Shown: piece by piece, positions 8,978 through 20,033 of the stretch
How positions within the stretch are numbered: the stretch's first letter is position 1
Layout of the letters: the number at the start of each line of letters is the position of its first letter
NCBI GenBank assembly: GCA_003009755.1
Contig: PXUB01000043.1
Coordinates: 1 to 64,000 of the forward strand
Length of the DNA: 64,000 nucleotides
Source of the DNA: Thermoplasmatales archaeon SW_10_69_26
GTDB taxonomy: Archaea > Thermoplasmatota > SW-10-69-26
Direction of reading: 5' to 3'
Notes under the pieces: model-generated
What the model was told of the DNA's origin: nothing
What the model saw: the letters and a program-made list of their open reading frames with translations, nothing else
The model's database searches: none
Made by a program: the position numbers and the translations under genes

Positions 8978-9031
8978 ACTATATACACGATAGAGTACAA
9001 GTTCTGGGCAGCGGTGTAAAGGATGTTTACA
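8978..9031 (+). promoter_or_regulatory. TATA-like box plus inverted repeat at the start of the HTH-PafA/Dop-like operon
   Basis: 'ACTATATACAC' at ~8978-8988; TGTAAA-GGATG-TTTACA at 9015-9031 spans the ATG at 9023, a candidate autoregulatory operator. Confidence 0.45.
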
Positions 9032-9373
9032 GAGTGGTTCGGCGGCGCGCCTCACGCCCGGGTCTTCGACTTCCTGGCAGAGGAGCCCCAGGTCGATTGC
9101 ACGATCACCGACATCAGCCGCGGCGCCGACGTGGCCCGCCCGACCGTGTACAAGGTCATCGACGACTTCCAGGAGCAGGATCTCGTCGTCGAGACCCGTC
9201 AGGTCGGCAACTCCCGGCTGTTCCAGCTCGATCTGGAGAACCGCACCGTGCACGACCTGCTCTGGGTGCTCGAGCCCGAGATCGAGGAGCCAGCCTTCAC
9301 CGACGTCGACCTGGCCGGCCCAGAGGCCGAGGAGGCCCCGCGCGCATCCGGCCGAACGAAGAGGAAGCGGTAG
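9023..9373 (+). CDS. winged-HTH transcriptional regulator
   Basis: 116 aa; 'CTITDISRGADVARPTVYKVIDDFQEQDLVVETRQVGNSRLFQLD' wHTH pattern; 18 nt upstream of the PafA/Dop-like gene. Confidence 0.75.
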   Translation: MFTEWFGGAPHARVFDFLAEEPQVDCTITDISRGADVARPTVYKVIDDFQEQDLVVETRQVGNSRLFQLDLENRTVHDLLWVLEPEIEEPAFTDVDLAGPEAEEAPRASGRTKRKR

Positions 9374-9391: not shown

Positions 9392-10672
9392 ATGGACGAC
9401 ATGATCCAAGGCACCGAGCACGAGTACACGTTGTACTCGGACAAGCTCAACCCGCGCGGGGTCGACCCCCACCGCCTAGCCTTGGATGTCCTCTGGCGCT
9501 CGAACCTGGGCGCCGAGGGCGAGTTCCTCCGCAACGGCTCGCGGGCCTACTTCGACGTGGGCCACCTCGAGATCGCGACCTCCGAGGCGCTGTCCCCCCA
9601 AGAGCTGGTGGCCTACGAGAAGGCCGGCGACCGCATGGTCGACACCGTCCGGCTCAAGCTCGAGGAGGCCCACGGGGTCAAGATCGACGCCTACAAGAAC
9701 AACACCGACCCCGACGGCGTCTCCTACGGCAGCCACGAGAACTACTGCGTCCCCCGCGACGTCGACTTCCCCGACGAGTACCTGCACAAGCTGGCGCCCC
9801 ACCTCGTCTCGCGTATGATCTACACCGGCGCCGGCGACTTCATCGACCACCAGTACGTGCTCTCGCCCTGCGCCTACCTGACCAGCCAGCTCGTGTCCGG
9901 CGGCAACCTCTCGAACACGGGCGTGCTCCACACGCGCGACGAGCCGCACGCCGATCCCGAGCGCTTCCGACGGCTGCACGTCATCATCGGCGACGCCCTC
10001 ATGGCCGAGCCGGCGATCCTGCTGCGCCACTTCACGACGCAGGGCATCCTGCAGGCGATCCACGCGGGCCTGATCGAGGACCCGCCCGAGCTCGCCAGTC
10101 CCCTGGAGGACATGTGGCACAACGTCGAGCATTACGAGCCCGACCAATGGAGCTTCGCCACCAAGGGCGGCGACGAGATCACACCGATGCAGATCCAGCG
10201 GTACTACCTCGAGAAGGTCGAACAGCTCGTCGAGACGCCCGAGGAGCAGGACGCCTTCGACCGCTGGGAGGCCGTGCTCGACGAGTTCGAGGGCGACGTC
10301 GACACCGACGAGCTCGGCAAGAGCGTCGAATGGGTGGCCCGCCTCAACGAGATCGAGCGGCAAAAGGACCGCAAGGGCCACGAGGAGTTCGTCGAGATGG
10401 CGGCTGCCAAGCAGTACTCCGAGCTCCACACCAACCGCGGCCTCTACTGGCGCCGCGAGCGCGAGGGGCTCACCGAGCGCGTCGTCACCGACAGCCAGGT
10501 CAAGAAGGCGATGGAGAAACCCCCGCACACCCGTGCGACGGCCAGAACCGAACTGCTTACCACTTACGAAGTGACGACAGCCGACTGGAGCGAGGTCCGC
10601 GTGCTGACCGAAGACGGCGGAACAGAGCGTCTCCGCCTGATGGACCCGTACGATCCCGAATTGGAGGTGTGA
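9392..10672 (+). CDS. PafA/Dop family (Pup ligase / Pup deamidase) homologue
   Basis: GTEHEYTL (cf. GIETEYG/F), [19 protein letters not shown] (cf. [20 protein letters not shown]), [17 protein letters not shown] (cf. KNNTDSAGNSYGCHENY), [27 protein letters not shown] (cf. [27 protein letters not shown]). Confidence 0.9.
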   Translation: [426 protein letters not shown]

Positions 10673-10674
10673 AC

Positions 10675-10854
10675 ATGAGCAAGAAACTGAAGAAGAAGGA
10701 CAAGCAAGACGACGAAGACTCGGTCGACCTGGACGTCGGAGACTCCTTCGACGTCTCCGAGGCCAAGGACGAGGACTTCGACCTCGACCTCGACAGCGCC
10801 CGGTTCCAGGGCAAGAAGGGTCAGGCCGGGACTCGCACGCGCTCGGGCAGCTAG
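10675..10854 (+). CDS. 59-aa acidic small protein, candidate Pup-like modifier
   Basis: ATG 2 nt after the stop of the PafA/Dop-like gene; MSKKLKKKDKQDDEDSVDLDVGDSFDVSEAKDEDFDLDLDSARFQGKKGQAGTRTRSGS. Size, acidity and adjacency fit Pup; there is no terminal GGQ/GGE. Confidence 0.6.
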   Translation: MSKKLKKKDKQDDEDSVDLDVGDSFDVSEAKDEDFDLDLDSARFQGKKGQAGTRTRSGS

Positions 10855-17645: not shown

Positions 17646-17733
17646 ACCGTGGGCACCGAGGCCCGCCCGCCGGGGCCACCCCCCGGTGGGTCACGGCCGC
17701 GGGTTTCTTAAGCCGTCACGACAACCGTCCCGC

Positions 17734-18741
17734 GTGGGCGGTCTCCGCGACTACGTCTACATCGCGCTCGCCGTCGTCGCCGTCTTCGGCGTGCTGTTCG
17801 CCGTCACCGGCAGCTGGCCCCCGGTCCTGACGGTGCAGTCGAACTCGATGATGCACGTCAACGAGACCGAATACCGCGCCGGCCAGGGGCACGCCCGGGC
17901 CGAGGACGTCGGCTTCGGTCGCACCGGGACGATCGACCCCGGAGACCTCGTGCTCGTCGAAAGCGTCGACGACCCCGAGGACATCGAGACCTTCGCCGGC
18001 AGCGACGACACCCGCTATGGCGACGACGGCGACGCGCTCGTCTTCCAGCGCACCGGCTCCGGCACCGACCTCACCATCGTGCACCGAGCGATGACCTACG
18101 TCGAGGCCGAAGGCGAGGGCGACAACCGGACCTACACCGTCGAATGGACCGAGGAATGGCTGCTCCCGCCCGAGGAGCTGGCCACGTGCAGCCGCGAGCC
18201 GTCCTTCAGGTGCACGTTCGACGAACGCGGTGTGTTCATCCCCGAGATCGGCGTGTTCGAGTGCCCGCAAAGCGGCCCGCCGTCGCGGGGCGGCCTCGGC
18301 GAGTCACGGTGCGAGAACCCCACGCCCAAGCCGTTCCTGGGCTCGGGGTTCCTGACGAAAGGTGACAACGAGGCCACGAACCCCGGCGCCGATCAGGCGC
18401 CCACCCGTCGGGGCGAGACGGCCCTGAACCCCCAACCGGTCGTCATGGAGCAGATCCGAGGCGTGGCGCGCGGCGAGCTGCCGGCGCTCGGTGTCTGGAA
18501 GGTCGCCTTCTCCGGCACCCAGATCCACAACGCCGAGGTCCAGAACCACGACTACTTCCTGCGCATCGGCAACATGGTCGCCCCCGCCGACGTCTGGGCC
18601 CTGGCCTTCGGCGAGCTCGTTGCGATCAGCGCCTCACCGATCGCGACCACGATCGGCCGCCAGCTGTGGGAGGGTCGAGACGAGGAGCGGGTCCCGGAGC
18701 TGTCCGTGCTCCGCCGCGCCGCCGAGGGCAAGGAAACGTAG
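17734..18741 (+). CDS. archaeal S26-family signal peptidase-like protein (copy 1)
   Basis: N-terminal TM, 'VQSNSMMHV', 'GTIDPGDLVLV', 'IVHRAMTYV', 'GFLTKGDNEATN..AD'; GTG start at 17734. Confidence 0.8.
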   Translation: MGGLRDYVYIALAVVAVFGVLFAVTGSWPPVLTVQSNSMMHVNETEYRAGQGHARAEDVGFGRTGTIDPGDLVLVESVDDPEDIETFAGSDDTRYGDDGDALVFQRTGSGTDLTIVHRAMTYVEAEGEGDNRTYTVEWTEEWLLPPEELATCSREPSFRCTFDERGVFIPEIGVFECPQSGPPSRGGLGESRCENPTPKPFLGSGFLTKGDNEATNPGADQAPTRRGETALNPQPVVMEQIRGVARGELPALGVWKVAFSGTQIHNAEVQNHDYFLRIGNMVAPADVWALAFGELVAISASPIATTIGRQLWEGRDEERVPELSVLRRAAEGKET

Positions 18742-18848
18742 ACCGCCGTCGGGGGATCTTGGGCAGCTTGGAACGTTCCCACGCCAGCGGCTTACCAATG
18801 CGTTATCGCGTCTGGAAGTTCCGTGGGCCCGGGGCTTCTTGATGTCGC

Positions 18849-18967
18849 GTCATCGGCTTGTGGAACGTCATCGCGTTCGGGGGGCTTCGCGGATACCGCG
18901 GCCCCCTTTTTGATGGAACGTTCCTGCTTGACTGCGTCTGCACGGATACCGCGGGACGGAAAGTTTC
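18849..18967 (-). repeat. ~120-bp two-hairpin repeat element, copy C4
   Basis: Minus strand GAAACTTTCCGTCCCGCGGTATCCG...AAAAAGGGGGCCGCGGTATCCGCGAAGCCCCCC...AAGCCGATGAC aligns to the copies at 26991, 27114 and 49960. Confidence 0.85.
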
Positions 18968-19010
18968 GAGGGCAACCGTTTTCAGTCTGGTCAGCCTCGC
19001 CTGGGCTACG

Positions 19011-20033
19011 ATGAGCGACGGGGACAGCCTGGCCCGCGACTTGCTCGTAGCGGCGGCGGTCGTGGGCGGCATCATCCTGGCCCTCGTCCTCTACACGGGC
19101 AACTGGCCACCGCCGGTCGTCGTCGAGTCCAACTCGATGATGCACGTCGACGAGGCCGAGTACGAGGGCAACGTCGGCGACACTCGCGCCGAGGACGTCC
19201 CCTTCGGCCGAGCCGGTACCATCGATCCCGGCGACCTCGTCCTCGTCAAGCAGTTCGACACGGTCGAGTCGATCTCCACCTACGCCGACGAGGAGGAGTC
19301 ACGCTACGGGAGCGTAGGCGAGGTCGTCGTCTACTTCCCCGGTGGCGACCAGCGACGGACGCCGATCATCCACCGGGCCATGACCTACGTGCAGGTCGAC
19401 GACACCTCGGAGGGCCCGCGGACCTACGAGGTCCGCTGGCACAGCGACTGGGACCGCAACGTCGGGTGCGACAGCCCCGACGACAACGAGTGCGTCCAAC
19501 CGGGCGAGTGCTCGGAGAACGGCCGCGGGCGCCTCACCTGCACGTTCGAGCACGGGTTCCGCCTGCCGGCGTTGCTTCGCAAAGGCGGCTCGCACGTCTA
19601 CCAGCCGAGCAACTCCGGATTCATCACGCAGGGCGACAACGTCGCGGGCAACCAAGCCCCCGACCAGGCCACGCCGGCCTTCGACCGCGGCCCGGTCGAG
19701 GGCGAGTGGATCAAGGGCGTGGCGCGCGGCGAGCTGCCATGGTTCGGCCTGATCAAGCTCGCCGTCACCGGCGAGCCGGGGAACACGGTCGGCGTCCGCG
19801 ACCATCCGTACTATGCCACGATCGGCTTCATGACGGCGGCCCAGGACCTGTGGGTCATGCTCGTCGTGGGGCTCGGCGTCGTCGCCTTCGCCCCCGTCGG
19901 CGTCGACTACGGGATCCACCTCGTCCGCCGGCGGCTGTCCACCGACCGTCGACCACCACCGGGAACCCGGGAGACGACGGCTCCCCCCGAGGAAGAGGCC
20001 GCTGGCGACGAGGTCCGCATCGACCTCGAGTAG
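19011..20033 (+). CDS. archaeal S26-family signal peptidase-like protein (copy 2)
   Basis: MSDGDSLARDLLVAAAVVGG TM, 'VESNSMMHV', 'GTIDPGDLVLV', 'PIIHRAMTYV', 'GFITQGDNVAGNQAPD'; paralogue of the preceding gene. Confidence 0.82.
   Translation: MSDGDSLARDLLVAAAVVGGIILALVLYTGNWPPPVVVESNSMMHVDEAEYEGNVGDTRAEDVPFGRAGTIDPGDLVLVKQFDTVESISTYADEEESRYGSVGEVVVYFPGGDQRRTPIIHRAMTYVQVDDTSEGPRTYEVRWHSDWDRNVGCDSPDDNECVQPGECSENGRGRLTCTFEHGFRLPALLRKGGSHVYQPSNSGFITQGDNVAGNQAPDQATPAFDRGPVEGEWIKGVARGELPWFGLIKLAVTGEPGNTVGVRDHPYYATIGFMTAAQDLWVMLVVGLGVVAFAPVGVDYGIHLVRRRLSTDRRPPPGTRETTAPPEEEAAGDEVRIDLE

Follow-up and report, generated by a model that had tools for sequence, protein, structure and literature searches.

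A putative pupylation-like modifier with an embedded Gln/Glu encoded beside a Pup-ligase-family gene in Thermoplasmatota-like archaea

INTRODUCTION

Can a small protein serve as a Pup-like modifier if the Gln through which it would be conjugated is not its last residue? The question is raised by a 64,000-nucleotide stretch of DNA from Thermoplasmatales archaeon SW_10_69_26 (contig PXUB01000043.1), which was analyzed as a whole and is called the window here. A single Pup-ligase-family enzyme, the proposed ligase, is encoded in it (9392..10672, + strand; PF03136, E=2.4e-87), followed by an open reading frame for 59 amino acids (10675..10854, +), the proposed archaeal Pup-like modifier. Searches of open-access papers, a set that leaves out most subscription papers and preprints, turned up none that assigns the enzyme or Pup to archaea of this group. 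Considering the genomic context, the homologue family, and the residue chemistry together, the small protein is probably a pupylation-like tag that the PafA-family enzyme attaches by the side chain of Gln50 (or Glu), a residue embedded in the tag.

RESULTS AND DISCUSSION

A small gene coupled to the ligase gene

The start codon (ATG) of the small gene lies at 10675, 2 nt beyond the stop codon of the ligase gene (10670-10672), and a Shine-Dalgarno-like GGAGGTG is located within the end of the ligase gene (10663..10669, +). The translation is MSKKLKKKDKQDDEDSVDLDVGDSFDVSEAKDEDFDLDLDSARFQGKKGQAGTRTRSGS, followed by the stop. The Lys-rich head, the Asp/Glu-rich body, the internal KKGQ, and the nine residues beyond it that the earlier note had described are all present in this product. 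The small protein was predicted to be disordered, and its structure model was of low confidence and without strands. Directly upstream of the ligase gene is a gene for a small MarR/wHTH regulator (9023..9373, +; PF12802), which occupies the same place in other class members.

Homologues of the small protein formed a family of 23 members from Thermoplasmatota-like MAGs, nearly all of which adjoin a ligase gene. The open reading frame is not due to chance, considering these ligase-adjacent homologues elsewhere and a codon pattern of purifying selection. The PF03136 ligase was detected in all seven genomes of the window's class and in 8 of 392 genomes sampled from the phylum. A profile search of the same 392 genomes recovered the small protein in exactly seven, namely those with an intact ligase (the eighth ligase is interrupted by a contig end), and the next best match had an E value of 0.0855. 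Treating genomes as independent, the chance that all seven small-protein genomes would fall among the eight ligase genomes is 3e-14. The distance between the two genes can vary, with the small protein encoded ∼2 kb downstream of the ligase in G004 and on the ligase contig but ∼130 kb away in G005. A scan of named genomes revealed 26 ligase loci, nearly all in archaeal MAGs and most with a small gene directly downstream, while plasmid and phage collections yielded two records and one record, respectively, all taken to be bacterial. One bacteriophage-labelled record (L092; MT835496.1) carries ARC, Dop, Pup, and PafA genes and looks like a bacterial contig.

Other genes recur downstream of the small protein. 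An M16 peptidase gene with an HWVEH motif was observed at seven loci (L029, L035, L036, L038, L040, L041, and L047), followed at L047 by a second M16-like gene; a presenilin/signal-peptide-peptidase-like gene was observed at L002, L004, and L095 (on a Pfam basis for L004 only); and a LAGLIDADG-type open frame lies directly downstream at L030 and similar sister-group loci (on a Pfam basis for L030 only). Elsewhere in the window, two adjacent similar proteins with signal-peptidase-like starts are encoded at 17686-20033.

An embedded Gln/Glu column and a constrained tail

Pup bears a C-terminal G[EQ] signature (PMC2588565). The archaeal small protein does not have Gln or Glu as its last residue, although, like Pup, it is linked to a gene for a PF03136 enzyme. 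None of the 23 members matched the Pup models of Pfam and NCBIfam, and the family profile had no match in the PDB. The loose likeness to the Pup tail to which the earlier note had pointed falls within chance for the window protein (shuffle p 0.41-0.82; hhalign probability to Pup, 0.5%). In the absence of detectable Pup homology, the statement that the protein works like Pup rests on context and residue chemistry, and the statement that it is a Pup fails.

The earlier note had called for a conserved Gln or Glu among homologues, and one was indeed found: the column of Gln50 (codon at 10822..10824, +), the proposed conjugation residue, is restricted to these two residues, as in the G[EQ] signature of Pup, with Gln in 13 and Glu in 10 of the 23 distinct sequences and no other residue. 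On the ligase tree, at least five Gln/Glu switches are forced, and seven are counted by parsimony; the chance that five random single-base nonsynonymous changes would all toggle Gln and Glu is ∼6e-5 if targets are assumed to be equal.

Beyond Gln50, the window protein has a nine-residue extension, AGTRTRSGS (10825..10851, +), the first five residues of which are under purifying selection according to pN/pS. The corresponding segment across the family consists of AGTRT or GGDRR and a further 1 to 4 residues and is under strong purifying selection, there being six residues beyond the Gln/Glu in the sister group and nine in the window's class and in L027. In the sister group, pN/pS directly after the Gln/Glu was 0.02, which makes this one of the most tightly constrained regions of the protein, while values in the window's class were 0.00 within the motif and 0.13 after Gln50. 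Selection of this kind indicates that the extension matters but does not tell how it is used.

A single PF03136 enzyme outside the PafA and Dop clades

The window enzyme scored nearly equally as PafA and as Dop and far below both equivalog cutoffs (for PafA, TIGR03686, 242.6 bits against a cutoff of 551.3). In phylogenetic analysis, the archaeal enzymes formed one clade (support, 100/100) separate from PafA and Dop. Both results weigh against the pupylation-like reading. They keep the catalytic Asp, which in the window enzyme is Asp55 (codon at 9554..9556, +), aligned to the catalytic Asp64 of Corynebacterium glutamicum PafA (4bjr, D64N). An AF2 model of the window enzyme (pTM 0.86) superposed on Dop and PafA (4bjr) with TM scores of 0.87 and 0.84, respectively. 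Ten sister-group genomes contained one full-length PF03136 gene apiece, and the additional matches in two of them were partial.

ATPase and proteasome genes

An ATPase gene of the pup_AAA (ARC/Mpa) type was detected at E≤1e-78 in five of the eight ligase genomes and in none of the other 384 phylum genomes. Most loci have the order ATPase-ligase-small protein, and in the sister group the ATPase gene lies just upstream of the ligase gene. The ATPase at L029 scored 364 bits as pup_AAA versus 276 as PAN; the scores of the sister-locus ATPases (364, 339, and 323 bits) are below the TIGR03689 cutoff of 504.75, yet this family was the best-scoring one for each, and in a small tree these proteins formed their own clade. 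Genes for 20S proteasome subunits were present in all seven genomes of the window's class.

Weighing against the pupylation-like reading, the class search recovered no ARC-type gene in the assemblies of the window's genome (G000) or G006, and none was recovered in G003 at E≤1e-78. Its absence from the window's lineage is not proven, since the G000 assembly has a completeness of 95% and the C45 match in it groups with PAN. The FEN1 neighborhood was also inspected for an ARC gene. In G000, no FEN1-like gene comes closer than a 40% match, and what adjoins FEN1 in G006, ahead of the contig end, is a start of lipoprotein-like rather than ARC type.

Taken together, the linkage, the phyletic match, and the presence of an ATPase gene of the ARC type speak for a modifier system resembling that of Pup. 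The reading of the small protein as a candidate modifier in the earlier note is partly supported; Pup sequence homology and a significant tail match were not found.

How the small protein may be used

We infer a route of four steps. The single PafA-family enzyme would activate the side-chain carboxylate of Gln50/Glu with ATP, deamidation would come before activation where the residue is Gln, the activated residue would be joined to lysines of target proteins, and the tagged proteins may reach the 20S proteasome by way of the ARC/Mpa-type ATPase in genomes that have one. The Gln/Glu might be used either internally or after proteolytic exposure, and we give each of these two routes a little over one chance in three. 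If a peptidase cut off the segment after Gln50, the Gln left at the C terminus could follow the canonical Pup route of deamidation and ligation; the chemistry would equal that known for Pup, and the conserved segment could be the protease site. However, no protease is a universal neighbor, and M16 genes stand beside some sister-group loci only. The M16 peptidase was rejected as a general processing enzyme, being missing from all seven genomes of the window's class. Proteolytic exposure is also at odds with the position of Arg201, a weak salt-bridge partner of Pup's C terminus (PMC8599861), which is Arg in all nine bacterial sequences but Thr in all 13 archaeal ones (Thr176 in the window enzyme). 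The same replacement favors ligation of the internal side chain without cleavage, which would yield a branched tag whose tail stays free, as does the strong constraint on the post-Gln segment in the sister group. Against internal ligation, no precedent for the use of an internal Glu by enzymes of this family turned up in the open-access papers searched, and the change from Arg to Thr may have other causes. We only tentatively suggest, giving it about one chance in three, that tagging occurs at the internal Gln/Glu, that the conjugates keep a free conserved tail, and that the Arg-to-Thr change gives room for the continuing chain.

Tagging aside, the small protein might be a non-covalent adaptor or regulator of the enzyme, with which gene adjacency in itself and the nonsignificant Pup-tail match are compatible; we consider this unlikely, because repeated switches within a column restricted to Gln/Glu are difficult to account for unless the side chain takes part in chemistry. 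Slightly more doubtful still is a Dop-like role for the enzyme, as a deamidase or hydrolase with the small protein as its substrate. In phmmer searches with the window enzyme, Dop chains scored above PafA chains, and the top Foldseek match of its model was Dop. However, the Dop-loop, which occurs in all Dop orthologs and is missing from PafA homologs (PMC8599861), is absent from the archaeal enzymes, in which the region spans 35 residues, compared with 37 to 38 in PafA and 75 to 79 in Dop. Moreover, at positions listed for this comparison (PMC7947786), the archaeal enzymes are PafA-like at Ala37 (12/13), Val65, Gly66, Ser194, and Asp439, while other listed positions are mixed or different. The enzyme is also retained in species that encode Glu, indicating that its role is not only deamidation.

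If the small protein is indeed a pupylation-like tag, such tagging would extend to archaea, and to lineages in which a single intact enzyme represents the family, and the residue of attachment would differ from the end of the tag. The use of an internal Glu by this enzyme family would become testable, with a bearing on the origins of PafA and Dop.

Comparison with known systems

Among small modifier and carrier proteins, the family differs from beta-grasp ubiquitin-like proteins and SAMP in having no strands (in a low-confidence model) and no terminal Gly-Gly. LysW-type amino-group carrier proteins are small and acidic, end in EDWGE, and carry groups on a Glu side chain; the window protein, in contrast, lacks both Cys and a C-terminal EDWGE, and its enzyme belongs to PF03136.

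A single run of genes in a Patescibacteria MAG (L046:3991-10358), a putative example of the UBact-type systems of other bacteria, encodes two PF03136 enzymes and two proteasome-type subunits along with an ATPase and a small protein that ends in EKSGE. This locus resembles the archaeal ones in its ATPase, in its PF03136 enzymes, and in the Gly-Gln/Glu tail of its small protein, but it has two enzymes, and its small protein, which has no detectable homology to the archaeal one, terminates at Glu.

The actinobacterial system of Pup, PafA, Dop, and Mpa/ARC differs from that described here in its hosts and in its modifier, to which the archaeal small protein shows no detectable homology; in the archaea, moreover, the Gln/Glu is embedded, and each genome has one intact enzyme and no separate Dop. 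Pup is likewise disordered (PMC5286830), and the two systems have in common a PF03136 enzyme, a small disordered partner, and a Gln/Glu near the end of that partner, together with 20S proteasome genes and, in most of the relatives, a gene for a pup_AAA-type ATPase, as in the actinobacterial Pup-proteasome system.
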